Assembly (NCBI GenBank): GCA_016793095.1
Contig: JAEUJQ010000039.1
Coordinates: forward strand, 1-64,000
Direction: 5' to 3'
DNA from: Myxococcaceae bacterium
Lineage (GTDB): Bacteria; Myxococcota; Myxococcia; Myxococcales; Myxococcaceae
DNA length: 64,000 bases
Shown: piece by piece, positions 31,481 to 51,577 of the stretch
Layout: every line of letters begins with the position of its first letter
How positions within the stretch are numbered: the first letter of the stretch is position 1
Translations under genes and position numbers: made by a program
The notes under the pieces: generated by a model
The model's input: only the letters and a program-made list of their open reading frames with translations
What the model was told of the DNA's origin: nothing
The model's database searches: none

Positions 31481-34400
31481 GGTGCACACCTCACGACGAC
31501 ACAGCCGTTGCCGCCCCGCCCTGCGCCGGTCCCCGAGGGACAGAGCGCGTAGTTCTGCGTCGCGGTCTGGGCCGGGTTCGACGCCATGCCCGGAATCGGG
31601 TTCACCGTGCCGTTCTCGGAGGTGAGGCCCGACGGCAGGGTGCCGTACGCGCCCGGGTCTCCCGCGCCCTGGAAGGTGCTCGCGCCGTTGCCGCCGTTCT
31701 GGCCAGCGCCGCCGCCGCCGCCCTCGGTGCCCGTCTGCGCGTTGCCGCCCGAGAGCGTCGACGCCGAGCCGGCGCCCATTCCGCCCGCGGGCTGGGCCGC
31801 CGCAGCGAGGCCGGCGCCACCACCTGCCGGAACGACGAAGCTGCGCGTGACGCTGCCCGTCTGGCGAACGCTGGTGAGCCCGCCACCTCCGCCGGCCGTG
31901 GTGCCCACCTCGACACCGCCGCCGTTCGCCGCGGTGCCGAAGGCCGAGCCCGCGCCCTCGTCGCCCATGATGCCCGAGGAGTTCTGCCCGCCGCGCCCCA
32001 CCCAGGCCGTGATGACGTCGCCGGGCGCGACGCTCAACAGCCCTGAGACGTAGCCGCCGGCGCCGCCCGAGTTGCGCGTGACGCCGGGGAACATCTCCTC
32101 GGCTTCGCCGCCTCCGGAGCCCCAGGCCGCGATGAACACCTGCGTGCAGGCGGCGGGGACGGTGAAGGTGCCCGAGACCGTCGTCCCGGTCGTCGGCATG
32201 CTGATGACCGCGCGGCCCGGCGCGCACTGCCCCGCGCCCGCGCAGTTGCCGGAGTTGCCCGCGCAGTAGCAGTTGTTCGAGGGACACTGAGAGTCCGTCG
32301 AGCACGGCGTCGGCCCTGCGTCCGGGGTGCCCGAGTCCGTCGGGCCGGCGTCGGCTGGCCCTGCGTCTGGCGGTCCGGCGTCTGGCGCTCCCGCGTCCGG
32401 TGGACCTGCGTCGGGTGGACCGGCGTCGGGTGGGCCCGCGTCAGGTGGGCCTGCGTCGGGTGGACCCGCGTCGGGCGGACCCGCATCGGGCCGGCCGGCG
32501 TCGACGGCTCCAGCGTCGGCCACGCCTCCATCGACGCCACCGTCGGGAGCGAAGATGCGCGCGAACACCTCGTAGCGGATGCCCGCAGGGAGCGGATCGA
32601 CCGCGTCGAGCACGACGTAGACGGCCTGCGTCGCCGCCGAGGCGTTCGTGTAGCGAAGCTCCTGGGCGTAGTCCGTGTAGCCCTGCCGCGCCTGGGCGCT
32701 CGCGCTGCAGGTGAGCCCCACCGTGCCCGCGTCGACGAAGTTCGAGCCGTTCACGCCACACGCCGCCTCGCCCGCGACCGCCCGGAGGAAGAACGTCGGC
32801 GGCTGCTGGTACGGCCGGTAGGCCTCGGCGGTGATGGCCAGCTCGTGGTTCGGGAGCAGCTCGTAGCCGATCGCCGTGTCCGGGCCGGAGGGTGACGGGG
32901 TGGCGCCGTTGAGGCTCGTCGTCACGCACGTCGACGAGCTGGGCACGTAGAAGTCGTTGCGCTGGGTGAAGATCTCGTCGCGGTACGACGCGGCCCCGCT
33001 GCGCACCTGCGTCAGCTGGCACGGGTTGCCGTCGACCGCAGGGCCCGCCACCGTCTGGTACTGGGTCAGCTGCACCGCCCGCGTCGTCGCGGTGAACGCG
33101 AAGGTCGCGCCGGTCGTCACGTCGCCGGACTCGACGACGAGGTAGGCGGTCTCGGTCGCGGTGGTGCGGTTCTGGTACGTCAGCGTGTACGCGCACTGGT
33201 ACGGGTTGCTCGCGGCCGTGCAGCTGATGCCGGTGGTGCCGGAGGCCGACGCGCCCGGGCCGTTCATGCCGCACGCGGTGCCCTTCACGAAGTTGGTGAC
33301 GACCTCACACGCGCCGCGCGTGAAGTTGAGATCGACGCGGGTCAACGGCGGCACGTCGAACCGGTAGGCTACGTCACGCGCGGACAGGTTCGGCGGCCCC
33401 GACGCGGCGCAGCCGGTGCTGTCCGCGGCGAAGGCGAAGTTGTTGGTGAGCCCGATGGAGCCCGACACGAAGGCATAGCCGCCGTCGAGGGAGACGGGGG
33501 TCGCCGCCGAGCAGGGGCTGCCCGTCACCGTCGTCGAGTGCGGCAGCATGGTGAGGACGAGGTCGTACGGGCCCTGGCTGCCGCGCGTGCGGCCATCGAC
33601 GACGACGTAGACGTCCTGCGCGCCGGGCCCCGGGTTGTAGTGCTTGAGGCCGAACCCGGCGTAGCTGCGCGCCGAGCAAGTGGCGCCGACGGTGCCGGTC
33701 GTCGCCGAGGTGGAGCTGTTGGTGCCGCAGGCGGCGAGGCTCGGGAGGACCGAGAGGTCGAACGTGTTGCTGGTGCGGGCGGTGAGATCGGCGCCGGCGG
33801 GCACGGTCACCCGGTACACCTGGTCGCTGCCGCTCTGCGTGAGGTCGGCGTTCCCCGCGCACCCCGCGTCGGGGAGGAACACGAAGTCGTTCTTGCTGTT
33901 CTCGGCCGTGTTGCCCTGCAGCTGACGGCCCGTGCCGACGCTGAGGGAGACGCTCTGCGCGTTCGTACACGGGTTGCCCGCGGTGGTCGGCCCGCGGAAG
34001 TCGCCCGACATGCAGGTGCAGTCGTACGTCGCCTCGGCCCACGTCCGGTTCCCGGCGCTGGTGAACAGCTGGGAGTACTCGGGGCAGGACTGGCGAACCG
34101 CGACGCCCCCGGGCCCCGTGCCGTACCTCACCGACCCGCGGTAGACCCCGAGCACCGTCGCGTCGGTCCGGTAGGTGCCCAGGTCCACCGTCGCGACGCC
34201 GTTGATGTCGGCGCCGCTGCCGCTGAGCTGCGGGTCGAACGAGCGGCTGGCGGAGTCGAGCCGCGCGGTGAACGGAACGCCGAGGCCCGCGCACCCTCTC
34301 AGCCTCGCGACCAGCGACGTGCGCTGGCGCGAACACACCAGCGAGGGCTGACCTCCGTCTCCGTAGCCGCCCTGCCGCAGCAGCTCGGGCTCGTTCGTGG

Positions 34401-36507: not shown

Positions 36508-36610
36508 TCGCTGAACCTCTCCTCGGAATCGATCGGCGGAACCGGGGAGCATGACATCGGTCAAGGAAGCGTTGGTACGGTTTTTTTCCAGTGGGACCTG
36601 AGCGCATGTG
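36508..36610 (-). promoter_or_regulatory. Probable promoter and ribosome-binding region of the giant lipoprotein operon
   Basis: Read on the reverse strand, this 5' region contains a conspicuous AT-rich run (GGAAAAAAACC) in otherwise very GC-rich DNA, then TTGACC, which fits a -35 element, and finally GAGGAGAGG eight bases before the ATG at 36507. No convincing -10 hexamer or sigma54 -24/-12 pair was found, so only the ribosome site is well supported. Confidence 0.35.
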
Positions 36611-38856: not shown

Positions 38857-39418
38857 TCAGAAGAACGTCACGCCGGCCTCGCGCAAGAGCCGCACCACCC
38901 GCTGCATCGGCAGGCCCTGAATCGATGCGCGAGAAGAGCGCCTGGCCCCTGCCCTCCACCCGATAGCCGCCGGCACAGCCTCTCCACTCGCCGGTGGCGA
39001 CGTAGCCGCGCACCTCGTCGTCGGACAGCGGCCGCACGTGCAGGCGCGCGACGTCCACCTCGGTGACGAGGTAGCCGGGGCCCACGACGCACACCCCCGT
39101 GAGGATCTCGTGCGAGCGGCCGGTGAAGGCCTTGAGCTGCGAGAAGGCCGCTGCCTCGTCCGGCGGTTTGCCGATGGCGGCGCCGTCGAGCGAGACGAGC
39201 TGGTCGGCGCCGATGACGAGGCAGCGCGGAAAGCGGATGGCCACCGCCCGCGCCTTGCGCTCGGCGAGCTGCGCGACGGCCTGCACCACCGGCGTGCCCT
39301 CGGCGACCGTCTCGTCCACCTCGGGCGGCACGACGCGGTACGGCAGGCCGAGGCCGTCCAGCAACGCGCGACGCGCCGGGGAGGTCGAGGCGAGGAGCAG
39401 CTCGGAGTACAGGCCCAC
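38857..39418 (-). pseudogene. maf: Maf-family nucleotide pyrophosphatase, frameshifted near the C-terminus
   Basis: From a GTG at 39418, the protein follows the Maf family closely: LLLASTSPARRALLDGLGL, VDETVAEGTP, the signature RCLVIGADQLVSLDG, KAFTGRSHEILTGVCVV, and WRGCAGGYRVEGRGQALF. The frame then turns into Asp/Ala/Gly nonsense. The expected C-terminus appears in another frame (SIQGLPMQRVVRLLREAGVT, stop at 38857). The shift lies near 38925-38940. Maf enzymes hydrolyse non-canonical or modified nucleoside triphosphates. Either the gene is inactivated at its last 25 residues, including the conserved GLP, or the assembly contains an indel. The in-frame ATG starts upstream precede unrelated residues. 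Confidence 0.72.
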
Positions 39419-39522
39419 CTGGAACACGCCGCCTCTCTGGCACAGCCGTTGCCACGAGGGAATCGAGGCATCATGGGCAGCTCCCACCGAACCTTCTTGC
39501 CCGCCCGCGCATTGGGGGAGAC

Positions 39523-41598
39523 ATGCGTCTGAGCCTCGGTCTCCTTCTCCTCGCTTCATGCGCCCCGCCGTTGCCGGTCGACGGCGCTGCCTGTCCCTGC
39601 GCCGAGGGGTGGGTCTGCTGTGAGGGCTCGAACGTCTGCGTGACGGAGGTCGGCCGGTGCCCCCTCGTGCCCGGCCCCGAGGTGCGCCCGCTCTCGGTCG
39701 AGCTGGGCGTCGAGCGCCGGTTCCGCTTCACCACCACGAGTGAAGACGTCAGCTGGTCGGTGGAAGAAGGCCAGGGTGGAGGCAGCTTCGAAGCGCCGGG
39801 CGTCTATGCGGCGCCGACCCAGCCCGGGACCTACCACGTCGTCGCGCGAGCGCGGGGCGGCGTGACGCGAGCCACCGTGGTGGTGCGCCCCTTGCGGCTG
39901 TCCCAGCTCGCGGGAGACCCCGGCGGGCCTTCGTCTCGCCCCATCGACGGCGTCGGGCCACTGGCGCGGGTGGTTGACCCGATAGACGGTGTCGTCGTCG
40001 GCGACGCGTACTACTTCCTCGACAGGGCGTCCCCCATGGCCCTCCGTCGCGTGCTGTTGGCGTCGGGCGCCGTCGAGACCCTCTTCCGCGGCGTGCGTCC
40101 GGGCGACACGCCCCGCATGACGGACGGCCCGCGAGAGACCGCCCAGTTCGCGTTCCCTTCGCTCCTCGCCTCGTCGCCTGCCGGTGAGGTGCTGGTGGAA
40201 GACCAGGGCTGCGTTCGGGCCCTCAGCCCCGCCGAGCTCTCGGTGCGCACGCTGGTGTGCCCCCGGTCTGGCGTGTACGGCCTCGCGGCCACGGCGACGC
40301 ACGTCTACTGGAGCAACCTCACCGAGGTGCGCCGGTGGGACCGCAGCTCTCAAGTCACCGAGGTCTTCATCGACGCGGCCACCCTGTCGAAGCCCGGTCG
40401 CCTCGCGGTCGCCGGTGAGCTGCTCTTCCTGGTCGACCAGGACGGGGCGGCCGTGAAGGCCGTCGAGCTGACGACCCGCGCCGTGTCCACCCGGCTCCCG
40501 CCGGTGGCGGGCCGGCGCTTCATCGACGTCGACGCGTGGGTCGCCGCGCCGGGCGAGGCCCCCGAGTTCGTCGCGCTCCGGGCTGACGGTCGCATCGAGG
40601 GCACCTCCGGGTCCCAGACAGCCATCGACGCCCGCTCCCTCACCCGCGACCCCGCTGGTCCGGACGACCTGCTCTTCCCCGCCCCGGACTCGATTCGTCG
40701 GCTCCGGCGCCTCTTCCTGCAGGAGGTCGTCGCTGGCCGGCCGTCACCGGGTGCGCCCATTCAGCTCGACGGCGCCCAGGCCTCGGCCCGCTTCGTCTTC
40801 GCGGTCCCGTCGCCCGAGGGCGTCGTCCTGGCCGCGCAGAGAGACGTCGTGTGGGTCTCCGAGCCGCTCGCGGGCACCATCCGCACCATCGACCGCCGCG
40901 GCGTCGTGACGACCCGCTTCACGGGTGTCATCGCGACGTCCATGGCCGTCGACGAGACGTTCGTCTACGTCATCACGCGGAGCGCGACGGAGCCGCCGCG
41001 CCTGCGACGCGCCCCGCGGTTCGGCGGGGCCTGGGAGACGCTCCCGGTCGTCCTCTCGGAGACGCCCTTCAGGCTGCTCGGCGCGCTCGACGATGGCCGC
41101 ATCGCCTGGTTCGAGGGCTCGGCCGTGCGCTTCCTCGATGGGCAGAGCGGCGCGCCGCTTCCCCAGCGCATCGCCGTGCCCCCGCCCTGGCCGTCAGACC
41201 CCATCACTCCCGAGGCCGGCTATGCGCTCGACCCCGCCGGGGCGCTGTGGGCGACCCTCACCGGGGCGGCCCGGGGAACGAAGCGAATCGACCTCACCAC
41301 CGGCGTCGTCGAGCACAAGGCCAGCGCGCTCGGCTCCACCCACGCCCTCACGTTCTCTCGAGGCCGCCTCAGCGGCGCCGTCACCAGCCCGACGGCTCAC
41401 CAGGAGAGCGTCCTGCACACGCTGGCGCCCGGCGCCACTGCCTTCACGCCGTATGTCGGCCTCCACGACGTGCCCATGGTGTTGCCGGGGCCACTGGACG
41501 CGGCGAGGCTGCACGCGGTGGGCGCGGTCGTCTCGCTCTGGAACGGCGACCTCGTCATCGCGGACGCGGCGGAGAACGTGGTGCTCGTCATCGAATGA
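39523..41598 (+). CDS. Beta-propeller lipoprotein with N-terminal Ig-like domain
   Basis: 691 residues. The lipoprotein signal is very short (LGLLLLASCAPP). A small Cys-rich module (CPCAEGWVCC, about 24-45) leads to an Ig/Big_2-like domain (about 55-125: VRPLSVELGVERRFRF and TYHVVARARGG). The remaining 560 residues show propeller-like repeats of the type VYGLAATATHVYWSNLTEVR, GRLAVAGELLFLVDQDG and TIRTIDRRGVVTTRFTG. It is probably a surface binding protein. It is the first of eight closely spaced forward genes; its stop overlaps the ATG of the sigma gene by four bases (ATGA), so it is translated together with it. Confidence 0.82.
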   Translation: MRLSLGLLLLASCAPPLPVDGAACPCAEGWVCCEGSNVCVTEVGRCPLVPGPEVRPLSVELGVERRFRFTTTSEDVSWSVEEGQGGGSFEAPGVYAAPTQPGTYHVVARARGGVTRATVVVRPLRLSQLAGDPGGPSSRPIDGVGPLARVVDPIDGVVVGDAYYFLDRASPMALRRVLLASGAVETLFRGVRPGDTPRMTDGPRETAQFAFPSLLASSPAGEVLVEDQGCVRALSPAELSVRTLVCPRSGVYGLAATATHVYWSNLTEVRRWDRSSQVTEVFIDAATLSKPGRLAVAGELLFLVDQDGAAVKAVELTTRAVSTRLPPVAGRRFIDVDAWVAAPGEAPEFVALRADGRIEGTSGSQTAIDARSLTRDPAGPDDLLFPAPDSIRRLRRLFLQEVVAGRPSPGAPIQLDGAQASARFVFAVPSPEGVVLAAQRDVVWVSEPLAGTIRTIDRRGVVTTRFTGVIATSMAVDETFVYVITRSATEPPRLRRAPRFGGAWETLPVVLSETPFRLLGALDDGRIAWFEGSAVRFLDGQSGAPLPQRIAVPPPWPSDPITPEAGYALDPAGALWATLTGAARGTKRIDLTTGVVEHKASALGSTHALTFSRGRLSGAVTSPTAHQESVLHTLAPGATAFTPYVGLHDVPMVLPGPLDAARLHAVGAVVSLWNGDLVIADAAENVVLVIE

Positions 41599-42179
41599 AC
41601 CCGTCACCCTCCACCTCGAAGGTGGTGCCGCTCTTCGCGCTCGAGGGTCGCGATGATGACGCCTTGATGGCGCTCTCCCGGACCCGCCGGGAGGCCTTCG
41701 ACGTGCTGGTGGGGCGGCACCAGCAGGCGCTGCTGCGCATCGCGGCGAAGTACCTGGGTGACGTCGCGACGGCGCGTGACGCCTGCCAGGCCACGTTCCT
41801 CGAGGTGTACCGGGCCCGTCACGCGTACCGGCCACTGGGGCGGTTCCCCTTCTTCCTGCGTCGCGTCCTGCTCAACCAGTGCCACCTGGTCGCTCGCCGG
41901 GGCGGCGCCGACGCCAGGCTCGCGGCGCTCGACGTCGCGCCCGACGCGCCCCCGCCGCCCGACGCCCTCATCCTCGCGGAGGAGCGCCGGCAGCTCGTCG
42001 AAGCCGAGGTGTCGAAGCTCAGCGAGAAGCTTCGCGCGGTCATCGTGCTCCGGTACGCCGGAGGCCACACCCTCGAGGACATCGCCGAGGTGCTCGACGT
42101 GCCGGTGGGAACGGTGAAGAGCCGGCTCTTCGCTGCCATGCAGGCGCTGGCCAGCGCGCTGCCAGGGGAGGCGCCATGA
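41595..42179 (+). CDS. RNA polymerase sigma factor, ECF subfamily
   Basis: 194 residues. Region 2 lies at about 30-100: RREAFDVLVGRHQQALLRIA, RDACQATFLEVYRARHAY and FFLRRVLLNQCHLVARR. Region 4 is at about 130-185, with KLRAVIVLRYAGGHTLEDIA and a helix-turn-helix ending in VPVGTVKSRLFAAM. It starts on the ATGA shared with the lipoprotein gene and ends on the ATGA of the next gene, so it is the regulatory core of the cluster. The target promoters are not recognisable here. It resembles many myxobacterial ECF factors of uncharacterised signal. Confidence 0.93.
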   Translation: MNPSPSTSKVVPLFALEGRDDDALMALSRTRREAFDVLVGRHQQALLRIAAKYLGDVATARDACQATFLEVYRARHAYRPLGRFPFFLRRVLLNQCHLVARRGGADARLAALDVAPDAPPPPDALILAEERRQLVEAEVSKLSEKLRAVIVLRYAGGHTLEDIAEVLDVPVGTVKSRLFAAMQALASALPGEAP

Positions 42180-42919
42180 CCGACACCCGGTTCGACGAGC
42201 TGGTGAAGCTGTCGGAAGGGGAAGTGACGGCCCGTCGCGCCGAGGCCTTGCGGGCCGAGCTCGCCACCTCGCCGACGCTCCGGGCCGAGCAGGCGCGCCT
42301 CGAGGCGCTGGTGGCCGCGCTCGAGGCGCCTGCGCCGCGGCTCGAGGGCCTCGACCTGCGGGACGGGTTCTGGGCGATGGCTGACGCCGCGCCCGCGCCG
42401 GTCCGGTCCGGGCCGGGCCTTCGGGTGGCGGCTGCCCTCGCGGTGGCCGCCGGGCTCGCGCTCGTCACCGCCACCGCCGTCATGCTGCGCGACGATGGCG
42501 TGCGCGAGAAGGGCGCGTCTGGCGCCGAGCTGACGGGCTTCGAGGCGTGGGTGTTGCGCGACGGGCAGGTGACGCGGCTGGGCCCGACGATGCATCGGGA
42601 CGACGCGCTGGGCTTCTCGTACCGCAACCTGCCGGGCAGCTCGGCGCGCGCCATCATGGTGTACGCCGAAGACGCCGCTGGTCGCGTCTTCTGGTTCTAC
42701 CCGGCGTGGACGGACCCCGGTGCGCGACCGTCGGCCGTTCCCATCGGGGTGTCGAACGCTCCGGTGCGGCTCGATGAGGCTGTTCGCCATGAGCTCTCGC
42801 CGGGCCTCCTCACCATCCACGCGCTCTTCCTCGACACGCCGGTGTCCGTGGTGGACGTCGAGGCCGGCCGGGTGCGAGCGCCGCGCGCGGCGTCGGTGAC
42901 GGTGGAGGTGCTGCCGTGA
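42176..42919 (+). CDS. Transmembrane anti-sigma-like protein with DUF4384-like domain
   Basis: 247 residues. The N-terminal 60 residues are a charged helical segment (FDELVKLSEGEVTARRAEAL), matching sigma-binding tails of anti-sigma factors, though without zinc ligands. A single transmembrane helix follows (about 80-102, VAAALAVAAGLALVTATAVM). The extracytoplasmic part (about 115-247) resembles DUF4384: GFSYRNLPGSSARAIMVYAED, VFWFYPAW, then VRLDEAVRHELSPGLLTIHA. DUF4384 domains are often found with caspase-like peptidases, and one is encoded directly downstream. I infer a sensor holding the sigma factor until the periplasmic domain is engaged. It overlaps both neighbours by four bases. Confidence 0.82.
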   Translation: MTDTRFDELVKLSEGEVTARRAEALRAELATSPTLRAEQARLEALVAALEAPAPRLEGLDLRDGFWAMADAAPAPVRSGPGLRVAAALAVAAGLALVTATAVMLRDDGVREKGASGAELTGFEAWVLRDGQVTRLGPTMHRDDALGFSYRNLPGSSARAIMVYAEDAAGRVFWFYPAWTDPGARPSAVPIGVSNAPVRLDEAVRHELSPGLLTIHALFLDTPVSVVDVEAGRVRAPRAASVTVEVLP

Positions 42920-44397
42920 CGACCGCGCTGCTCCTGGTGCTGGCGGCCGCGCCCGTGCATCGCTTCGCGCTCGTCGTCGGGAGCAACACGGGGGAGGGCG
43001 TGCGCGCGGCCCCGCTGCGCTTCGCGGACGACGACGCCGTCGCGATGCACGAGCTGCTCCTCGAGGCGGGCGTCGAGTCGGTGCTGCTCGCCTCACCCGA
43101 CGCCGACACGCGGAGGCTCCACCCACGCACCGCGCCCCTCGCCCCGCCCACCCTCGACGCCCTCAAGGGCGCCTTCGCGGCCCAGCGCGCCTCGATGGAG
43201 CGCGCGCACTCGAACGGTGAGCGCGTCGAGTGGCTCTTCGTCTTCTCGGGGCACGGCGATGTCGAGGACGGCGTCGGCTTCCTCGGGCTCGAGGTCGGCC
43301 GCCTCACCCGCGCGGTGCTGCATGACGAGCTGGTGGCGCGGGCCCCGGCTGCGGTGGCCCACGTCGTCATCGACGCCTGCCGCTCGGGCGCGCTCGTCGC
43401 GAGCAAGGGGCCTGGCGGGCTGCGGCTGCCCATGCCCGCCGTCTTCGCGCCAGAGCCGTCGTGGCCGCCTTCGGTTGGCTTCGTGTTGTCGGCGTCGTCA
43501 GCGAAGGACTCGCACGAGTGGGAGAAGTGGCAGGCCGGCGTCTTCAGCTACGAGGTGCGCTCGGCGTTGCGTGGCGCCGCTGATGCCGACCGCGACGGGG
43601 CCGTCTCGTACGCCGAGCTGGGCGCTTTCCTCGAGACGGCCAACGCCGCCATCGAGAACCCGCGCCTCCGCCCCGATTTCCTCTCGCTACCCCCGGGCGG
43701 CAAGCCGGGACTGGGCACCGCGGTGCTGGCCTGGAGCCTGCCTGGGGTGCTGGGGCCGGTGGCCGAGCCGGTGTACCTCGAGCGCGCCAACGGAGAGCGG
43801 CTGCTCGACGTCAACTCCGCGCCCGGCCACGTCACGCGCCTGCAGCTGCCCCCCGAGCGACCGCTCTACGTCCGCTCGAAGGATGAGCGGCGCGAGCTCG
43901 TCCTGGCCTCGGCTGAGGTGCAGCTCGCCGCGTTGGGCGTGGGACCGTCTGCGCCCGCCGCGCGGGGCTCCGTCGATCGCGCGCTCGATCGGCTCTTCCT
44001 CACGCCCTTCGACGAGGGGCAGGTGAGCCGCTACGCGGAGGCCTGGGCGCCACCCGAGCTCGCCTCGTTCGCCGTCGCGGGCCCGCCGCGGGCCGCGATG
44101 GTGGCGCGGAGCATCGCAGCCATCTCCACCCTCGCTGGCGTCGCGATGGGCGTCACCGGGTTCTCCCTGGGGTGGAGTCAACAGGGCGCCAGCGAGCAGC
44201 TCGACCAGCGCGCCCGGCTCGAGCGCAATCGGCTCGTGGGGGTCGGCAACGCCATCGGGGTGGCGGGGCTCGTCGTCGCGGCCGTCTCGGCGGCGACCTG
44301 GCTGGTGCTCGGCGCCGTCTGGGAGCTGCCCGTCTTCGGCGTCCTTCCGGCCGCGGAAGGCCCGGTCGCCGCGGTGTCGTGGACGGTGTCGTTCTGA
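42916..44397 (+). CDS. Caspase-like peptidase (C14 family) with C-terminal membrane helices
   Basis: 493 residues. A short signal-like start (TTALLLVLAAAPVHR) leads to the caspase fold: FALVVGSNTG, LRFADDDAVAMHELLLEAGV, the His motif WLFVFSGHGDV (His113) and the Cys motif HVVIDACRSGAL (Cys155). A calcium-type EF-hand-like loop (DADRDGAVSYAEL) occurs at about 218-230. The C-terminal quarter carries two hydrophobic helices (about 400-420 and 440-470). The cytosol or periplasm as site of action depends on whether the N-terminus is cleaved; the AAP end suggests export. Translationally coupled to the sigma and anti-sigma genes. Its substrate is unknown; regulated proteolysis of a partner in the cluster is plausible. 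Confidence 0.9.
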   Translation: MTTALLLVLAAAPVHRFALVVGSNTGEGVRAAPLRFADDDAVAMHELLLEAGVESVLLASPDADTRRLHPRTAPLAPPTLDALKGAFAAQRASMERAHSNGERVEWLFVFSGHGDVEDGVGFLGLEVGRLTRAVLHDELVARAPAAVAHVVIDACRSGALVASKGPGGLRLPMPAVFAPEPSWPPSVGFVLSASSAKDSHEWEKWQAGVFSYEVRSALRGAADADRDGAVSYAELGAFLETANAAIENPRLRPDFLSLPPGGKPGLGTAVLAWSLPGVLGPVAEPVYLERANGERLLDVNSAPGHVTRLQLPPERPLYVRSKDERRELVLASAEVQLAALGVGPSAPAARGSVDRALDRLFLTPFDEGQVSRYAEAWAPPELASFAVAGPPRAAMVARSIAAISTLAGVAMGVTGFSLGWSQQGASEQLDQRARLERNRLVGVGNAIGVAGLVVAAVSAATWLVLGAVWELPVFGVLPAAEGPVAAVSWTVSF

Positions 44398-44420
44398 CGA
44401 AGACTCGAAGGGAGCTGCGC

Positions 44421-45515
44421 ATGACACGAGGAGCGCTGACGGTGCTGGTGGGGTGCCTGGTGGCCTGTGGTCGTCCGGCGGTGGTGGGCGGAGACGGGGC
44501 GGCGAGCGCTGGCGGCCAGGGGGCGAACGCAGGCGGGACAGCCGCAGGGAGCGCTGCTGCCGGTGGGTCCACCGGGGCCGCGGGGGGGAGCCCGGCCGGA
44601 GGAGGCGCTGCGACCTGCGCGCCCGAGCCGCTCGGGCCGGACGACCGCCTCAAGCTCGTCTTCGTCGTCGATCAAGGCGACCTCATGTGCGTGGCAGATC
44701 CACCAGGCACCGGCGACCTGCCCAACGGTTGCGACGCCGTCGTCGTGCCGCAAGGGGTCTTCCAGCCGGCGAGGACCCGGGCGCTGCTCGCCGCGCTCGA
44801 TGAGGCCGCGCTGCTTCGCGACGCCGAGGTCGCGCTCGTCGCCTTCGGCACGACCACGGTGGCGACGACCTTCCGACGCCCGACGGAGCCGTTGCTCCGG
44901 TCGCGCGTCACCAGCCTGCAGAGCGAGCTGGCGGGCCGCTCGAACCTGCAGCGGGCGTTGCGCGCAGCGACGCAGCTCATCACGACCGACGCGCAGCGCC
45001 TCGGCGCCGAGGCCCGCGCGCGGACGCGCTACGCCGTGCTGCTGGTCAGCGCAGGCCTCCCGACGCCGCGGTGCTCCAGCGTTGACGTGGCGGCTCCCAT
45101 GCCGCCGGCCCTGCCAGGTGAGCGCTGGCCCGATACGCCGGGCGCGGGCACGTGGTGCAACGACCCCCTCGCCGACACCCTCCCCGGGGAGCGTGAGGGC
45201 TTCGTGCCCGGTGGTGACCTCAACCAGCAGTGGCAGCTCGGTGAGGCCGTCGATGACCTGCTGGCGGTGGCGGGTCAGCATGGGCTCGCGGAGGTGCGGC
45301 TGCACACCTGGCAGGTCTTTCACGACGCGACGGCACAGCGCTGCGGAGCCGCGTGCGACGGCTTCTTCGGCATGCGCACGGCCGACGCCCGCGCGACAGG
45401 GGCGTTCGTCCTCGACGACCTCGCGCGTCGAGGGCGGGGCAGCTTCGTCGGGAACGGCGAGCTGAGCGCCTCGTTCGCCCGGGTGCCCCTCTTCCTGCGG
45501 GCCTGCCCCCGCTGA
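44421..45515 (+). CDS. VWA-like lipoprotein with degenerate metal site
   Basis: 364 residues. The ATG at 44421 follows AAGGGAG by six bases. A lipoprotein signal (LTVLVGCLVACGRP) and a Gly/Ala/Ser linker (about 25-65) lead to a domain with the outline of von Willebrand factor A: KLVFVVDQGDLMCVADPPG opens it, then AEVALVAFGTTTVATTFRR and ARTRYAVLLVSAGLPTPRC. The usual metal-binding DxSxS is changed to DQGDL, so the classical site is broken. C-terminal Cys pairs (RCGAACDGF, LFLRACPR) suggest disulfides. It is likely an outer-surface partner of the sigma-caspase genes immediately upstream. Confidence 0.78.
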   Translation: MTRGALTVLVGCLVACGRPAVVGGDGAASAGGQGANAGGTAAGSAAAGGSTGAAGGSPAGGGAATCAPEPLGPDDRLKLVFVVDQGDLMCVADPPGTGDLPNGCDAVVVPQGVFQPARTRALLAALDEAALLRDAEVALVAFGTTTVATTFRRPTEPLLRSRVTSLQSELAGRSNLQRALRAATQLITTDAQRLGAEARARTRYAVLLVSAGLPTPRCSSVDVAAPMPPALPGERWPDTPGAGTWCNDPLADTLPGEREGFVPGGDLNQQWQLGEAVDDLLAVAGQHGLAEVRLHTWQVFHDATAQRCGAACDGFFGMRTADARATGAFVLDDLARRGRGSFVGNGELSASFARVPLFLRACPR

Positions 45516-45578
45516 CGCGTCGCGCCCGGCAGAGTCGAGCCGCTCGCGTCGGCCGCGCCGCTCCGCCATGCTCGGCCC

Positions 45579-46199
45579 ATGACGTCGCTGGTGCTGAGCC
45601 TCGTTCTCGCCGCCGACCCATCGGCCGCGCGGCTGCTCGACTCGCACGTCGCGGCGGGCGTCGGGGTGCTCGGCTCGGCGTACACCGTCACCGGCGCGCG
45701 GCTCGGTGAAGCGGCGCTCATGCCCACGCTCTCGGCGCGCGGGGTGCTGGCCGGCTTCGTCGTCGAGGGCGGCGCGTTCGTCTCGTCGTCCCTCGTGCGC
45801 GGCGGAACCGTGTTCTCGCTCACCGGCGCTGCGCGCGTCGGCTATTCAGGCCAGCGCTGGGCCGTGGTGGCGGGCGTCATCACACAGGTGGCCCCCGAGG
45901 CGCAGCCGTCGGTGCAGGTGTTGCCGTCGGTGCGTGCGTCGGTGTCGTTCGGCGCGGCGGGCCTCACGCTCGGCGTCTTCGACCACCTCGGCCTCGTCCC
46001 TGCGCACCTGTCCGTCGACCTCCGCGTGCCGAACGGGCGCTTCTCGCTGGGCTGGGTGGCGCCGCTCGGCCTGCTGGCCTCTGCCGACGTCGACCTCGTG
46101 CAGGGCTTCGGGCTGCGCGTCACGGCCTTCGGCTTCCGCCTCGGCAACGTCGAGTCGGCGCTGCTCCTCGTCTCGGGCACGTGGGGAGGTGCGCGATGA
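45579..46199 (+). CDS. Putative outer-membrane beta-barrel protein
   Basis: 206 residues. It has a short hydrophobic start (SLVLSLVLAADPS) and then repeated amphipathic strands with Gly/Ser/Ala turns (AGVGVLGSAYTVTGAR, VEGGAFVSSSLVRGG, VRASVSFGAAGLTLGVFD, LVQGFGLRVTAFGFRLGN). The last residues, VSGTWGGAR, lack a terminal aromatic residue. It could be a small barrel or a secreted beta-rich protein. Its stop overlaps the start of the beta-glucosidase gene by four bases, which argues for joint translation. Confidence 0.62.
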   Translation: MTSLVLSLVLAADPSAARLLDSHVAAGVGVLGSAYTVTGARLGEAALMPTLSARGVLAGFVVEGGAFVSSSLVRGGTVFSLTGAARVGYSGQRWAVVAGVITQVAPEAQPSVQVLPSVRASVSFGAAGLTLGVFDHLGLVPAHLSVDLRVPNGRFSLGWVAPLGLLASADVDLVQGFGLRVTAFGFRLGNVESALLLVSGTWGGAR

Positions 46200-47584
46200 A
46201 GCGCGTCGTGCTCCTCGCCCTCGCCGTCACGGCCTGCCAGCCCCGCGCGGGCCTCGACGACGTGAGCGCTGACCCCGGTCTCCTCGGGAGCGCGTTGCCG
46301 CGCGGCTTCCTCTGGGGCACCGCCACCGCCGCGCACCAGATTGAAGGCGGGCTCGACAACGACTGGAGCGTCTTCGAGGCCGGCAGCTTCCCCGACGGCA
46401 CGCCGCACATCCGCAACCGGGACCGCGCCACCGTCGCCACCGACAGCTGGAACCGCTTCGACGACGACCTCGCCGCCATGAAGGCGCTCGGCTCCACCAC
46501 CTACCGGTTCTCGGTCGAGTGGAGCCGCCTCGAGCCGAGGAAGGGCGAGTGGAACGACGCGGCGATGCAGCGCTACCGCGACTGGTGCGTGAAGCTGCGC
46601 GCGAACGGCATCACCCCGATGGTGACGCTGCAGCACTTCACCCTGCCGCGCTGGGTGGCCGACGCGGGCGGCTTCGAGGGCGAGGCGATTCGCGGCGACC
46701 TCGAGCGCTTCACCCGCCGCGTCGCCGGCAACCTGAAGGACCAGGTGGACTGGTGGGTGACGCTCAACGAGCCCAACGTCTACGCGGTGCAGGGCTGGCT
46801 GCGTGGCGTCTTCCCGCCCGGGAAGAAGGACGACACCGTCACCCAGACGAAGGTCATCGCGATGATGCTGAAGACGCACGCGCGCATGGCCCAGGCGCTG
46901 CGCGAGGTGGACGACGTGGACGCCGACGGTGACGGCTTCGCCACCCGCATCGCCGTCGCGCACCACGTGCGGTACTTCCAGCCGGCCACCACGAGCCCGC
47001 TCGACGTCGCCATCGCCGCGCTCACCGACGACTACTCGAACGAGGCGATTCCCCGCGCGCTCAAGACGGGCCGCGTGCTCCTCGACGTGCCCGGCGCCAT
47101 CACCATCGACGAGGTCGTGCCGGGGCTCGCGGGCAGCATCGACGTGCTCGGCCTCAACTACTACACGCGCGACCTGGTGCGGACCGACCTCGGCTCGCCC
47201 TCGTTCTCGACGCTGACGTACCGCAAGGGCCGCGCGACGAGCGACCTCGGGTGGGACCTGTACCCCGACGGGCTGCACAGCTTCCTCGTCCGCTTCGCCG
47301 CGTACGGCTGGCCCCTCGTCGTCACCGAGAACGGGCTGGCGGACCGCTCGGGGACGCTGCGCACGCCCTTCCTCGTGCAGCACGTGCACGCCCTGGAGCG
47401 CGCGCTCCGCGACGGCGCCGACGTGCGCGGCTACGCCCACTGGAGCCTCATGGACAACTTCGAGTGGGCCGAGGGCTACGACGCCCAGTTCGGCCTCTTC
47501 ACCATCGAGCCCGGCACGCTGCGCCGCGTGCCCACCGCGTCCGTCGAGCCTTTCCGCGCCATCGGCGCCAACATTCCGAGGTGA
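46196..47584 (+). CDS. Glycoside hydrolase family 1 (beta-glucosidase-like), lipoprotein
   Basis: 462 residues, the normal length for GH1. The signal VVLLALAVTACQP predicts lipidation, which is unusual for GH1, normally cytosolic. The GH1 N-terminal signature is present (RGFLWGTATAAHQIEGG). The general acid/base is Glu192 in WWVTLNEPNVY and the nucleophile is Glu378 in PLVVTENGLAD. The substrate pocket motifs YRFSVEWSRLEP and GLNYYTRDLVRT and the C-terminal HWSLMDNFEWAEGYDAQFGL complete the family pattern. It should cleave beta-glucosides or related sugars on the cell exterior. Starts on the ATGA of the preceding gene. Confidence 0.95.
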   Translation: MKRVVLLALAVTACQPRAGLDDVSADPGLLGSALPRGFLWGTATAAHQIEGGLDNDWSVFEAGSFPDGTPHIRNRDRATVATDSWNRFDDDLAAMKALGSTTYRFSVEWSRLEPRKGEWNDAAMQRYRDWCVKLRANGITPMVTLQHFTLPRWVADAGGFEGEAIRGDLERFTRRVAGNLKDQVDWWVTLNEPNVYAVQGWLRGVFPPGKKDDTVTQTKVIAMMLKTHARMAQALREVDDVDADGDGFATRIAVAHHVRYFQPATTSPLDVAIAALTDDYSNEAIPRALKTGRVLLDVPGAITIDEVVPGLAGSIDVLGLNYYTRDLVRTDLGSPSFSTLTYRKGRATSDLGWDLYPDGLHSFLVRFAAYGWPLVVTENGLADRSGTLRTPFLVQHVHALERALRDGADVRGYAHWSLMDNFEWAEGYDAQFGLFTIEPGTLRRVPTASVEPFRAIGANIPR

Positions 47585-47587
47585 CGC

Positions 47588-48043
47588 ATGAAGCAGGTGC
47601 TCGCGGCCGTGGTGCTCCTCCTGGGTGGTGGCGCGCTCGCGTGCAAGTGCGCGACCGACAGCCCGTTCCTCACCAACGCGATGAGCGGGCCCGTGGTGCT
47701 GGTGAAGGTGACGGCGCCCGGAGAGCAGCGCGTGAAGGTGCAGGTCGAGCAGCAGCTCGCCGGCGCGAACCTGGCGGGCGTGGTGACGGTCGAAGGCGCC
47801 GACGGCGGCAACTGCAACGCCTCGGTGGCGGGCCTCAAGAAGGGCGACCGGCTCGTGCTGGCGCTGTCCCAGAAGCAGGGCGGCCGGCTCGACCTCAGCG
47901 GCTGCGGCGTGCACGCCCTCACGGTGGAAGGTGACGTCGCGAAGGGCGCAGTGGACGAGGGCGTGACGTCGATGCGCCTCGACGCGCTGGCGAAGAAGGT
48001 CGTCGAGGCGCAGCGCGCGTACGAGCAGTTCAAGGCCCGGTGA
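47588..48043 (+). CDS. Secreted TIMP/NTR-like protein
   Basis: 151 residues; the ATG is three bases after the GH1 stop. The signal peptide VLAAVVLLLGGGALA ends in an Ala-Leu-Ala site, so the mature protein would begin CKCATDSPF. A free N-terminal Cys-x-Cys is the hallmark of TIMPs, where it clamps the zinc of metalloproteases. The rest has an NTR/OB-fold outline: VVLVKVTAP, VKVQVEQQLAGAN, VVTVEGADGGNC, GDRLVLALSQKQ and GCGVHAL. The Cys pattern (two at the start, then GNCNAS and SGCGVH) fits the NTR domain. A lipoprotein reading is less likely (Ala at -3, Leu at -2). The assignment is by visual pattern only. Confidence 0.62.
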   Translation: MKQVLAAVVLLLGGGALACKCATDSPFLTNAMSGPVVLVKVTAPGEQRVKVQVEQQLAGANLAGVVTVEGADGGNCNASVAGLKKGDRLVLALSQKQGGRLDLSGCGVHALTVEGDVAKGAVDEGVTSMRLDALAKKVVEAQRAYEQFKAR

Positions 48044-49301
48044 GCTGCTCGACGAGCACCCGGTTCCGGTAGACGCCGGGCGCGTGCAGCACCGTGTCGA
48101 GGCCCGCGCCAATGCCGGTCGCCGCGAGGGAGACGATGACGAGCACCGTCGCCTCGTCCTGCGCCGGCCGGCCGAACTGCACCACGTTCACAGGTACGCC
48201 CTCTCCCGCGGTGGGAGACAGCGACACGTCGGCCTGCGCGGCGAAGTCGAGCCAGGTCACCCGGCACTGGGGCGTGTCGCCGTCGAAGAGCGTGAAGGCG
48301 AGCGGAGCGGCGCGCGCGAGCGGCCCCCGCGCGAGCTCGGTGAAGGGCCCCTTCTCAGCGTCGGCGGCGCGCCAGATGACGAAGTCACCCGAAGCGGTGA
48401 GCGCGCCGAAGTGGGCTGGGCGGCCCTTCGGGTAGTCGAAGGGCAGCACGGGCAGCCGCGTGGGGCCGGTGGCGGCGAAGGCGGCGCTCGGCTGGACGAG
48501 GCCGGTGACGGTGAAGTCGGTGAAGCGGCTCAGGTGTGAGGCGGTTGCCTTCGGCACCAGCGTGGCGGCGTCCACGAGAACGCCTCCGTCCAGCATCGAG
48601 ACGGCGAGCGCCGCGCGGCGGAGCGGCCCCTCGAGCAGCGGGCGCTCGGTGGCCTTCTGCGTCGTCGGCGTGCGCGCGAGCGGCCAGAAGCCGTCGTCCG
48701 ACGCGTCCTGGAAGACGAGGAGCGGCGACAGCGTGAGGGCGCCGGCTCCACAGGCGAGCCGCAGCGCGCCGTCGGGCGAGACGGTGACGCCCGGTGGAGG
48801 AGCAGGCTGTGAGGCCGGTGGCAGGTCCGTGAGCAGCGGCCGCGTGCCGGCCGGCGCAGGCACCCGCGCGCGCACCTGCACCACGCCCAGCGGCGCGACC
48901 CCGAGCGCCACCGCGAGGAGCACCCCCCGCCGGCTCGGCGGCAGGGCCCGGTAGGCGCGCCACGTCGTCACCACCCACGCGACGCCCACGACGAAGGGGA
49001 CGCCGAAGAGGCTGCCGTTCGTCGCCGTGAAGGAGAAGCGGCCGGTCAGCGCGCCCACCATCAGCAGCACGCCGGGCGCGAGCCCCGCGACGAAGGCGAG
49101 CGCCTCGCGCCTGGCAACCGCGCCCGCGAGCGCCACCGCGACGAAGAGCCACGCCGCCAGCACCGTGCCCGTCGTCGCCCAGAAGAGCGGGTGGGTGAGC
49201 GGGAAGACCGACGGCCGGCGCCAGAGCGTCATGCTCGCGCCCAGCGCACAGAGCGTGAGCGACGTCACCGACATCCACGAGGCGAAGCGCACCCCGCGCA
49301 T
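48030..49301 (-). CDS. Integral membrane protein with large extracytoplasmic domain, unknown function
   Basis: 423 residues. The first 165 residues contain about five hydrophobic helices (VTSLTLCALGASMTL, LFWATTGTVLAAWLFVAVAL, ALAFVAGLAPGVLLMVGAL, PFVVGVAWVVTTW and GVLLAVALGVAPLGVVQV). The remaining 260 residues are soluble, Pro-rich near 190 and then beta-rich with many Leu/Ala, containing CGAGALTLSPLLVF and CRVTWLDF. No known family is evident. Its 3' end overlaps the TIMP-like gene by 14 bases in convergent orientation, and it is divergent from the next gene. Confidence 0.7.
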   Translation of the reverse strand: MRGVRFASWMSVTSLTLCALGASMTLWRRPSVFPLTHPLFWATTGTVLAAWLFVAVALAGAVARREALAFVAGLAPGVLLMVGALTGRFSFTATNGSLFGVPFVVGVAWVVTTWRAYRALPPSRRGVLLAVALGVAPLGVVQVRARVPAPAGTRPLLTDLPPASQPAPPPGVTVSPDGALRLACGAGALTLSPLLVFQDASDDGFWPLARTPTTQKATERPLLEGPLRRAALAVSMLDGGVLVDAATLVPKATASHLSRFTDFTVTGLVQPSAAFAATGPTRLPVLPFDYPKGRPAHFGALTASGDFVIWRAADAEKGPFTELARGPLARAAPLAFTLFDGDTPQCRVTWLDFAAQADVSLSPTAGEGVPVNVVQFGRPAQDEATVLVIVSLAATGIGAGLDTVLHAPGVYRNRVLVEQLTGP

Positions 49302-49417
49302 TGTCGCTCACCCGTGCGCCGCGCGCTTGCCAGACCGCCCGGCGCCCACCTCGCGGCCGCGAGCTGAGCTTCGACACGGAGCCGCGGCACGCTGGCCCGG
49401 CCCTGCCCCAGTGGGCT

Positions 49418-51577
49418 ATGGCCAGCACACCCATGCGCCTCGTCGCCGCGCTCCTCCTCTGCCTCGGGCTCCTCGAGGCAGGCTGCACGCCACCCCCACC
49501 GGTGCGGAAGGAGATCTGCGGCAACGGCATGGACGACAACGGCGACGGCAAGACCGACTGCCTCGACCCGACGTGTTTCAGCGAGGCCATCTGCTCGGTG
49601 CCGCTCGAGAACTGCACCAACGGCGTGGACGACGACCGCAACGGCTTCACCGACTGCCGCGACCCGGCCTGTCAGGTGGACATCAACTGCCTGCGCATCG
49701 AGAACTGCGACAACGGCATCGACGACACCGGCGACGGCACGGTGGACTGCGCGGACCCGGACTGCCAGGGGAAGCCCGGCTGCGGTGACGGCGGAGCCGA
49801 GGCGCCGCTCGGCTGCTTCGACGCCATCGACAACGACAACAACGGCAAGAAGGACTGCAGGGACCCGGCGTGCGTCAACCAGTCGTGCGGCGTGGGCTGC
49901 GCATGCACCGACGGCGGCGTTCGGGGCGAGGTGGACTGCGGCAACATGATGGACGACGACGGCGACTCGCGCGCCGACTGCACCGACTCCGACTGCGAGG
50001 GCGTCACCTGCGGCGCGGGCTGCGCGTGCGTCGGCGGCAACCGCGGCGAGGGCGAGTGCGGCGACTCCGTGGACAACGACTCGGACGGCCAGCGCGACTG
50101 CGCCGACTCCGACTGCGCGATGCGGGCGTGTGGCATGGGCTGCACCTGCCGCGCGCTGATGAGGGCCGAGACCGCCTGCACCGACATGATGGACAACGAC
50201 GGCGATGGCTCGATGGACTGCGCCGACCCCGACTGCGCCAACGTCGCCTGCGGCGCCGGCTGCACCTGCCAGATGGGCCGCAAGGTCGAGACCGCCTGCA
50301 CCGACATGATGGACAACGACGGCGACGGCAACGCGGACTGCCTCGACTCTCCCGACTGTGACAACACCTCCTGCGGCATGGGCTGCACCTGCGGCATGGG
50401 CCGGCGGCGGGAGACCGCGTGCAACGACAAGGCGGACAACGACGGCGACGGGCAGCGCGACTGCGCCGACACCATGGACTGCGTCGGCACACCGACCTGC
50501 TCGTCGAACCCGATGCCCGAGAACACCGCGTGCAACGACGGCATCGACAACGACAACAACGGCTTCATCGACTGCGAGGACACCGGCTGCAACCTGGTGA
50601 CGTGCGGCGCAGGCTGTGTGTGCCGCATGAGCGCGAAGGCCGAGACGAACTGCACCGACAGCCTCGATAACGACGGTGACACGCGCACCGACTGCGCCGA
50701 CATGGACTGCGTCGGCATGGGCACCGAGAACGACGCGACGGCCTGCGCCGACACGCGCGACAACGACTGCGACGGCGTGGCCGACTGCGCGGACATGGAC
50801 TGCGTCTCGCAGCCGAGCTGCAGCAACCGCGCGGTCGGCGACCCGTGCTTCTTCGGCAGCCAGTGCACCTCGGGCGCCTGCCGCGCGGAGGACACCACGG
50901 GCTGGCCTGGCGGCTCGTGCATCGCGGGCCTCAACACCTGCTCCCGCAGCGACGCGGGCGTGACGAGCGGCTGTCCCGGGAACTCCGTGTGCCTCGGCGA
51001 CCAGTTCGGCGCCTTCTGCCGGCAGCGGTGCAGCGGCAGCTCGGGCTGTCGCGCCGGGTATGCCTGCCATGACGACGATGACGACAGCGCGTCTCCCAAC
51101 TGGTGCACGCCGATGTGCGCCCAGGACTCCGACTGCCGGCCGCTCGGCGGCATGTACGGCTGCAACCCGTGGAGCAAGCTGTGCGAGCTCAAGGACAAGG
51201 GGCGCCCGAAGTACGGCGGCGCGTGCTCGGGGAACGCAGACTGCGAGTCGGGCCTGTGCCTGCGCGCGAGCAGCAACGGCGGGTACTGCTACGGCTGGTG
51301 CGCGAGGTCCGGCGGGTCGTGTGGTGGTGACGGCGTGTGCGAGCCCGGGCCCAGCGGTGACGGCACTGGCCGCTGCCTCGACGGCTGCACGATGGCGGGC
51401 AGCAACGCCGAGTGCCGCGCCGGCTCGCCCCAGACGTGCGGCCCCGCGCCCAGCTCCAGCACCAACGTGTGCTACTGCCGCGTCGAGGGGGAGAGCTGCT
51501 CGGCGACGGCGCCGTGCTGCGCGGGGAGCAACCGCTGCGTCGTCTTCCCCATCATCGGCGGCGTCTGCGTCTTCTGA
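49418..51577 (+). CDS. Lipoprotein with twelve Cys/Asp-rich calcium-binding-like repeats
   Basis: 719 residues from the ATG at 49418 (or 714 from 49433); both precede the signal LVAALLLCLGLLEAGCTPP. Twelve tandem repeats of about 28-38 residues follow (about 33-460). Each has the form C.DG.DND.DG..DC.D.DC, in which spaced Asp residues resemble calcium loops and Cys residues pair. From the fifth to the tenth, most repeats are separated by a CGxGCxC spacer. The C-terminal 240 residues are Cys-rich modules such as GDPCFFGSQCTSGACR, SGCRAGYACHDDDDD and SCSATAPCCAGSNRC. It is probably a rigid surface protein. The 116-base divergent gap upstream should hold its promoter, though no clear hexamers are visible. 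Confidence 0.85.
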   Translation: MASTPMRLVAALLLCLGLLEAGCTPPPPVRKEICGNGMDDNGDGKTDCLDPTCFSEAICSVPLENCTNGVDDDRNGFTDCRDPACQVDINCLRIENCDNGIDDTGDGTVDCADPDCQGKPGCGDGGAEAPLGCFDAIDNDNNGKKDCRDPACVNQSCGVGCACTDGGVRGEVDCGNMMDDDGDSRADCTDSDCEGVTCGAGCACVGGNRGEGECGDSVDNDSDGQRDCADSDCAMRACGMGCTCRALMRAETACTDMMDNDGDGSMDCADPDCANVACGAGCTCQMGRKVETACTDMMDNDGDGNADCLDSPDCDNTSCGMGCTCGMGRRRETACNDKADNDGDGQRDCADTMDCVGTPTCSSNPMPENTACNDGIDNDNNGFIDCEDTGCNLVTCGAGCVCRMSAKAETNCTDSLDNDGDTRTDCADMDCVGMGTENDATACADTRDNDCDGVADCADMDCVSQPSCSNRAVGDPCFFGSQCTSGACRAEDTTGWPGGSCIAGLNTCSRSDAGVTSGCPGNSVCLGDQFGAFCRQRCSGSSGCRAGYACHDDDDDSASPNWCTPMCAQDSDCRPLGGMYGCNPWSKLCELKDKGRPKYGGACSGNADCESGLCLRASSNGGYCYGWCARSGGSCGGDGVCEPGPSGDGTGRCLDGCTMAGSNAECRAGSPQTCGPAPSSSTNVCYCRVEGESCSATAPCCAGSNRCVVFPIIGGVCVF
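49517..50805 (+). repeat. Twelve-unit coding repeat, Cys/Asp-rich
   Basis: The DNA underlying the repeats shows twelve copies of a diverged unit built on GACAACGACGGCGACGGC. The units differ in length and codon use, so the array is old and selected at the protein level. The one exception is two adjacent units near 50180-50350 that are almost identical. Confidence 0.85.

Follow-up and report, generated by a model that had tools for sequence, protein, structure and literature searches.

In a Myxococcaceae bacterium, a five-gene cassette encodes a surface lipoprotein (gene 1), an extracytoplasmic function (ECF) sigma factor (gene 2), a predicted one-transmembrane (TM) anti-sigma factor (gene 3), a caspase-like protease (gene 4) and a further lipoprotein (gene 5). 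The cassette probably, though by no means certainly, acts as a self-contained trans-envelope signalling unit, in which the caspase would cut the linker of the anti-sigma factor and free the sigma factor for transcription of its own operon and of the gene for the gene 1-type lipoprotein, whose constant N-terminal part is designated here as the head. The cassette lies in the window, i.e., the whole 64,000-nucleotide stretch that was analysed (contig JAEUJQ010000039.1, positions 1 to 64,000 of the forward strand, assembly GCA_016793095.1), which belongs to a genome of 8.8 Mb in 93 contigs (G000). By a caspase-profile scan of named genomes, the closest named relatives are Myxococcaceae/Archangiaceae metagenome-assembled genomes. 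The first-pass annotation, made from the sequence alone, had joined genes 1–5 with three downstream genes (genes 6–8) in one eight-gene cluster and read it as pointing to predation. Its layout was borne out when checked against the window: all eight genes are on the plus strand at the coordinates first given, with four-base overlaps at 41595, 42176 and 42916, and also at 46196, and the largest intergenic gap is 63 bases.

Sigma, anti-sigma and caspase genes and a candidate cleavage site

The profile used to retrieve the loci was made from members of the sigma/anti-sigma/caspase triad, and the ECF model was seeded with nine sigma factors from triad loci; the fractions given below apply to this caspase clade and not to bacterial caspases in general. 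The caspase profile detected 80 loci in named genomes, and 72 of these had enough upstream sequence for analysis. Upstream of the caspase, an ECF sigma gene was found at 60 of the 72, an anti-sigma homologue at 57 and both at 55. A sigma gene was present upstream at 43 of 53 loci vs 0 of 53 in the mirror downstream window, and in the de-duplicated set both partners were found at 76 of 104 caspase loci. Anti-sigma matches occurred in 52 of the 147 genomes of the class, and the caspase gene almost always came after them in the loci fetched. The first-pass annotation had named conserved gene order as a check: the order of the sigma, membrane anti-sigma and caspase genes is kept across Myxococcota, whereas the eight-gene neighbourhood is not. 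The sigma factor in front of the anti-sigma and caspase genes differs in kind, being of the window kind in some loci and of a divergent kind in Myxococcus and Archangium. By eye, four of the six other caspase genes in the window genome also seem to be preceded by a sigma gene and a gene for a TM protein (L062, L063, L064 and L065); these sigma factors are of other types, and the L062 linker also contains VKG.

Each member of the triad was assigned from its own features. Gene 2 encodes 194 residues with PF04542 at 38–97 (3e-11), PF08281 at 133–185 (1e-15) and a TIGR02937 match above cut-off; it has the sigma2 and sigma4 regions, no sigma3 and the length of about 200 residues that characterize ECF sigma factors, in agreement with the first-pass call. 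Gene 3 alone gave no meaningful match in Pfam, DUF4384 (PF14326) included. Among 26 homologues, zf-HC2 was detected in 15 and DUF4384 in two (best 7e-6), and the family profile matched solved structures of RsiW (6e-7, positions 1–77), DdvA (1.5e-3) and 3hug (5.5e-3). The anti-sigma part of the first-pass label "DUF4384-like anti-sigma" was thus supported by family and profile evidence, whereas DUF4384 itself was seen only in the two homologues and not in the window protein. The AlphaFold model of gene 3 contains N-terminal helices at 4–13, 19–31, 33–50 and 62–69, a TM helix at 80–104, a low-confidence stretch at 101–116 (predicted local distance difference test score, pLDDT, <50) and a confident beta domain from 120 onward. 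An N-terminal helical anti-sigma domain adjoining a sigma gene is the arrangement of class I anti-sigma factors, and gene 3 is predicted to be the anti-sigma factor of gene 2. By hydropathy, a single strong TM segment is found near the N-terminal third of the anti-sigma factors. The H-x3-C-x2-C ligands of the zinc-associated anti-sigma (ZAS) domain, which most relatives have, are missing in gene 3 and two congeners, with the helical domain retained. A fold search with the anti-sigma model returned nothing at ≤0.001, and its beta-sandwich matches were weak.

The caspase-like nature of gene 4, likewise noted in the first pass, was confirmed by PF00656 (33 bits, 5e-8; cut-off 21.4), which assigns the protein to Peptidase C14, with a p20 fold and a His-Cys dyad. 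Metacaspases and orthocaspases cleave after Arg/Lys, and the pocket is formed by two Asp residues (PMC4357240, PMC6426788). By position, we equate Asp40 and Asp153 of gene 4 with Asp95 and Asp211 of TbMCA2; given this equivalence, gene 4 has the two S1 Asp residues expected of an Arg/Lys-specific enzyme. In all 28 aligned caspases, the p20 core leads directly into an EF-hand-like loop, whose profile matches EF-hand calcium-binding proteins in the PDB at 1e-8. This loop fits the calcium requirement of many metacaspases and suggests that calcium may have a role in the caspase. All 25 aligned N-termini resemble signal peptides, and most complete caspases have C-terminal hydrophobic segments; by hydropathy, gene 4 has both an N-terminal signal peptide and C-terminal TM segments. 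From the signal peptide of the caspase and the single TM segment of the anti-sigma factor, the protease and the linker are predicted to share one compartment, the periplasm.

Within that linker, which is disordered in the AlphaFold model of gene 3, the column of Lys112 is basic in all 92 aligned homologues (Arg in 73, Lys in 19), and the next residue is Gly in 74 and Ser in 11. No other column of the anti-sigma factor is conserved to this degree; the zinc ligands are lower (His in 63 of 83, Cys in 65 of 82 and 64 of 82). An alignment-free count found [RK]G in 66 of 91 linkers vs 29 expected by shuffling. It is unusual for a positive charge to be conserved next to a TM segment on its periplasmic side, which adds weight to this residue. 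For an action of the caspase on the anti-sigma factor, raised in the first pass as a point to check, the residue provides a candidate site that had not been anticipated, and we infer that the caspase may cut the anti-sigma factor at the linker Arg/Lys.

Head lipoprotein and promoter-like element

The lipoprotein encoded by gene 1 combines a constant Cys-rich head with a variable tail. In an alignment of 31 proteins, Cys13, 24, 26, 32, 33 and 39 and Pro25 of the head are invariant, and Cys46 is conserved in >90%. The gene is located directly after the caspase gene in most close loci and before the sigma gene in the window's genus. Behind the head, FG-GAP, fibronectin III, LRR, RCC1, SBBP propeller and other domains were found; among 83 pairs of loci whose caspases are ≥50% identical, 75 had tails with no detectable similarity to each other. 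A head-only query retrieved 45 copies at E <1e-10 in 195 genomes, and 38 of the 44 strong copies examined in the phylum adjoin a triad caspase or anti-sigma gene. Class genomes that have the head mostly carry one strong copy each, and the window genome has exactly one, gene 1. The first-pass proposal that surface lipoproteins belong to the signalling set therefore stands for the head lipoprotein, which goes with the triad, and fails for the lipidated gene 7, which is part of the backbone described below. The tail of gene 1 gave weak NHL/PKD matches; its model is all-beta with a mean pLDDT of 54, and its resemblance to tandem propellers (LRP6, BT4663) is suggestive only. The tail is probably an Ig-like domain plus a beta-propeller, an assignment of low confidence. 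At another locus (L080, 3559-7426), a single triad is followed by a tandem of three head-lipoprotein genes that differ from each other, which looks like a duplication of sensors or displays.

A promoter-like element precedes gene 1 (Table 1), and at ≤1 mismatch this is its sole site in the window genome. Exact matches to the degenerate form CGAACCTT-N13-GCAYTSG are unique in each of three genomes and lie solely before this operon. Because this form was derived from the same three loci that it finds, its informative parts are the absence of matches elsewhere and the recurrence in G051, a genome with a window-type sigma factor and the head gene behind the caspase gene; there, the element occurs with a one-base-shorter spacer exactly twice, before the sigma gene and before the head gene. 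A scan of the window found no second copy at <3 mismatches and none near genes 6–8.

A second element, TTCGTCCA-N16-CGTTG, is common to the regions upstream of the sigma gene in nine Myxococcus-type loci, and its exact matches are confined to these loci in the 14 genomes searched. Eight Myxococcus-type genomes contain exactly two sites, one before the sigma gene, which was used in the derivation, and one before the head gene, which is independent of it. Three Archangium-group genomes have one site at the same locus, and no site is present in three Myxococcus-type genomes that lack a triad-linked head. With the reversed element as a control, each genome gave 0–1 match. These distributions suggest that the sigma factor uses the promoter-like element, and the simplest reading is that it would transcribe its own operon, the head lipoprotein gene and little else.

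Boundaries of the cassette and neighbouring genes

Comparison with related genomes separates genes 1–5 from genes 6–8. Genome G132, of the same genus, retains the flanking genes, genes 6 and 7 and those further to the right, and lacks genes 1–5; it carries ~47 bases where the window has the cassette. In G136 and G133, genes 6–8 occur together and away from any cassette: no anti-sigma match whatsoever was found in G136, and the cassette of G133 is located on a different contig from its genes 6–8. In G135, genes 1–5 are present, the GH1 protein is only 40% identical and gene 8 is absent. Because synteny in these four genomes separates the two groups, we treat them as two units: genes 1–5 are a ~6.1 kb cassette that is gained or lost, and genes 6–8 are chromosomal backbone and unrelated neighbours. 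At the same site in G136, between maf and gene 6 (L275, 1337-8695), there are ~7 kb of different genes, the first of which resembles, by eye, a zinc-ribbon protein kinase. The insertion site near 39415/45539 seems to be a variable spot.

The single eight-gene unit of the first-pass annotation is contradicted by this synteny. Its predation reading rested on the GH1 glycosidase and a TIMP-like inhibitor (gene 8). The lipidated GH1 was verified (PF00232, 2e-81; the lipobox was read off the sequence), but searches of Pfam and NCBIfam, and of PDB sequences to E 10, gave no TIMP or NTR match for gene 8, and both genes belong to the backbone. The predation argument falls because genes 6–8 occur without the cassette, the cassette occurs without them and no promoter-like element is found near them. 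That the eight genes form one predation operon with the GH1 protein and a protease inhibitor as effectors, as the single strand and the gaps of ≤63 bases might suggest, is scarcely credible to us.

The last gene of the cassette, gene 5, is kept behind the caspase gene in G135 and resembles the N-terminal part of MtsD (NF047639, E 6e-36, far below the family cut-off). In gene 5, as in a protein at L041 (9434-10327), DQGDL stands at the place of the DxSxS metal site of von Willebrand A domains, and this site in gene 5 is likely degenerate.

Elsewhere in the window, a very long reading frame on the minus strand (31477-36564) has a P-D-A-G repeat run and Cys-rich segments, and a protein at 49301-51577 is rich in calcium-site-like D-N-D-x-D-G-x-x-D-C repeats; the latter is beside genes 6–8 in relatives as well. 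As for a known defence system, PADLOC returned only a helix-turn-helix match to the sigma factor (4e-4), and this assignment was rejected.

Table 1. Positions of the genes, domains, residues and elements discussed in the text.
Feature	Coordinates	Strand	Evidence
Inserted cassette, genes 1–5 and promoter	39416..45538	.	G132 flank homology ends ~39415 and resumes ~45539
Promoter-like element CGAACCTT-N13-GCATTGG, 7 bases before gene 1	39488..39515	+	Alignment with two congeneric relatives
Gene 1, surface lipoprotein, constant Cys-rich head and variable tail	39523..41598	+	
Constant head of gene 1, lipobox Cys13 to Cys46, C-x10-CPC-x5-CC-x5-C-x6-C	39559..39660	+	31-protein alignment
Gene 2, ECF sigma factor (sigma2 and sigma4)	41595..42179	+	Pfam/NCBIfam
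Gene 3, predicted one-TM anti-sigma factor	42176..42919	+	RsiW/DdvA profile match, family zf-HC2/DUF4384, AlphaFold model, hydropathy
Cytoplasmic anti-sigma domain of gene 3	42176-42385	+	
TM segment of gene 3	about 42413-42487	+	Hydropathy, AlphaFold model
Lys112-Gly113 of gene 3, disordered periplasmic linker, candidate caspase cleavage site	42509..42514	+	
DUF4384-like periplasmic beta domain of gene 3	about 42527-42916	+	
Gene 4, caspase-like (C14) protease, predicted periplasmic	42916..44397	+	PF00656, hydropathy
Asp40 of gene 4, proposed S1 pocket for basic P1	43033..43035	+	Asp in 103/103 aligned
Catalytic His113 of gene 4	43252-43254	+	His in 104/105 aligned
Asp153 of gene 4, proposed S1 pocket for basic P1	43372-43374	+	Asp in 104/104 aligned
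Catalytic Cys155 of gene 4	43378-43380	+	Cys in 104/104 aligned
EF-hand-like loop DADRDGAVSYAE of gene 4, immediately after the p20 core	43582..43617	+	
Gene 5, lipoprotein, final cassette gene	44421..45515	+	NF047639 similarity
Gene 6, membrane protein	45579..46199	+	
Gene 7, GH1	46196..47584	+	
Gene 8, called TIMP-like in the first-pass annotation	47588..48043	+	

Proposed mechanism, alternatives and relation to known systems

We propose that, at rest, the cytoplasmic domain of the anti-sigma factor would hold the ECF sigma factor, while the caspase-like protease would cross into the periplasm and stay anchored there to the inner membrane. A cue would be registered by the surface lipoprotein or by the DUF4384-like periplasmic domain, and the caspase would then cut the anti-sigma factor after the invariant Arg/Lys (Lys112) in the periplasmic juxtamembrane linker. 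General intramembrane and cytoplasmic proteases would clear the stump and leave the sigma factor free, and its output would be a sudden rise in lipoprotein, protease and newly made inhibitor at the envelope. The proposal builds on the composition, order and conservation of the genes, their predicted topology, the catalytic and linker residues, the restricted promoter-like element and the cassette boundaries; from these we infer each biochemical step, and the lipoprotein may be a sensor as well as a product.

Several observations weigh against this mechanism. Most deep-branching loci have no detected element shared by the sigma and head genes (17 of 41 had a match vs 7 expected). The head is not universal in triad loci, as 17 of the 61 closest caspase loci lack it within 6 kb, and strong heads occur with no caspase, anti-sigma or sigma gene nearby at L216, L217, L218, L226 and L231; these heads may be orphans or remnants, and the three Myxococcus-type genomes in this set also contain no TTCGTCCA-N16-CGTTG element. 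In addition, the window anti-sigma factor has lost zinc ligands that its relatives carry, and the linker Arg/Lys could serve another protease or keep the DUF4384-like domain in place.

If the caspase were the output rather than the trigger, another site-1 protease would free the sigma factor, and the induced caspase would act on proteins of the envelope or outside the cell, for instance during developmental lysis or the killing of neighbours. The operon structure does place the caspase within the small regulon of the sigma factor, and developmental cell death was proposed for the sigma–metacaspase operons of Myxococcus xanthus in PMC3501461. We nevertheless regard this explanation as unlikely, since it accounts neither for a lone basic residue, the most conserved of the anti-sigma factor, in a disordered periplasmic linker nor for the near-obligatory adjacency of the caspase and anti-sigma genes. 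Processing of the head lipoprotein by the caspase, i.e., its maturation or the release of its tail from the surface, with the sigma and anti-sigma factors merely setting the dose, would suit the neighbouring positions of the head and caspase genes, the promoter-like element that the head gene has of its own and the combination of constant heads with variable tails. However, the head shows no obvious conserved basic motif at which it might be cleaved, and caspases of the wider family occur with sigma and anti-sigma factors yet without a head; this explanation appears quite unlikely. Pairs of ECF sigma and anti-sigma factors are frequent in myxobacteria, and the operon might be a plain ECF stress-response operon that carries the caspase along as a catalytically idle or structural component. 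The conservation of the catalytic His (104/105), the catalytic Cys (104/104) and both S1-type Asp residues across very diverse loci makes this very improbable.

Parts of the proposed arrangement have counterparts in known systems. Asplund-Samuelsson et al. 2012 (PMC3501461) described operons that combine a sigma-70 factor with a metacaspase for four of the five M. xanthus metacaspases, and the arrangement recurs in Anaeromyxobacter, Haliangium, Sorangium and beyond. The present loci, one of them from an M. xanthus strain (L089), very probably belong to this type, having a sigma factor and a caspase homologue in one predicted operon; in the accessible part of that paper, neither the anti-sigma factor with its linker site nor the periplasmic placement of both partners is mentioned, nor are the head lipoprotein, the promoter element and the insertion of the cassette. 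In type III-E CRISPR, a caspase-superfamily protease cuts the inhibitor of an ECF sigma factor (Csx29, Csx30 and CASP-sigma; PMC10028731). The protease there, Csx29, is of the TPR-CHAT type and becomes active when the guide RNA recognizes its target RNA, whereas the present protease is a C14 enzyme with an export signal, and the inhibitor here is a membrane protein that carries an anti-sigma domain. Craspase is defined by TPR-CHAT and Cas7-11; gene 4 matches C14 and not CHAT, and no CRISPR component is among the eight genes, the genome as a whole not having been searched for CRISPR.

The regulated intramembrane proteolysis of RseA (by DegS) and RsiW, the best PDB match, also involves a one-TM anti-sigma factor whose extracytoplasmic part is cut first; here, the proposed site-1 protease is a caspase from the same operon with a defined Arg/Lys site. 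In the FecI–FecR–FecA system (PMC9249621, PMC11637429, as far as the accessible parts describe it), a sigma-controlled surface protein may similarly feed a signal back through an anti-sigma factor, but the surface partner here is a lipoprotein with exchangeable tails and not a TonB-dependent receptor; no TonB-receptor family was detected among the eight proteins in Pfam or NCBIfam. EACC1/EACC2-caspase systems (PMC8195603) and ECF54 with CHAT proteins (PMC8999054) share the combination of a constant caspase with variable partner domains, with an ECF sigma factor nearby in some; the EACC systems use effector-associated adaptor domains, and the EACC1-type caspase model scored only 16 bits against gene 4 (cut-off 140). 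No description of the head lipoprotein, the linker site or the tiny regulon was found in the open-access literature searched.

The substrates and purpose of bacterial caspase homologues have long been an open question, and for one large myxobacterial caspase clade there is now a concrete candidate substrate with just one predicted cleavage site, together with a transcriptional read-out. The CPC...CC head serves as a marker for a lipoprotein family with exchangeable tails, and the promoter-like element, being nearly unique in the genome, is usable as a reporter. It is possible, and we suggest it tentatively, that a periplasmic calcium-binding caspase is a site-1 protease dedicated to an ECF anti-sigma factor and is coupled to the head/tail lipoproteins, in which case these loci would represent a new modular class of surface signalling whose regulon is the module itself.

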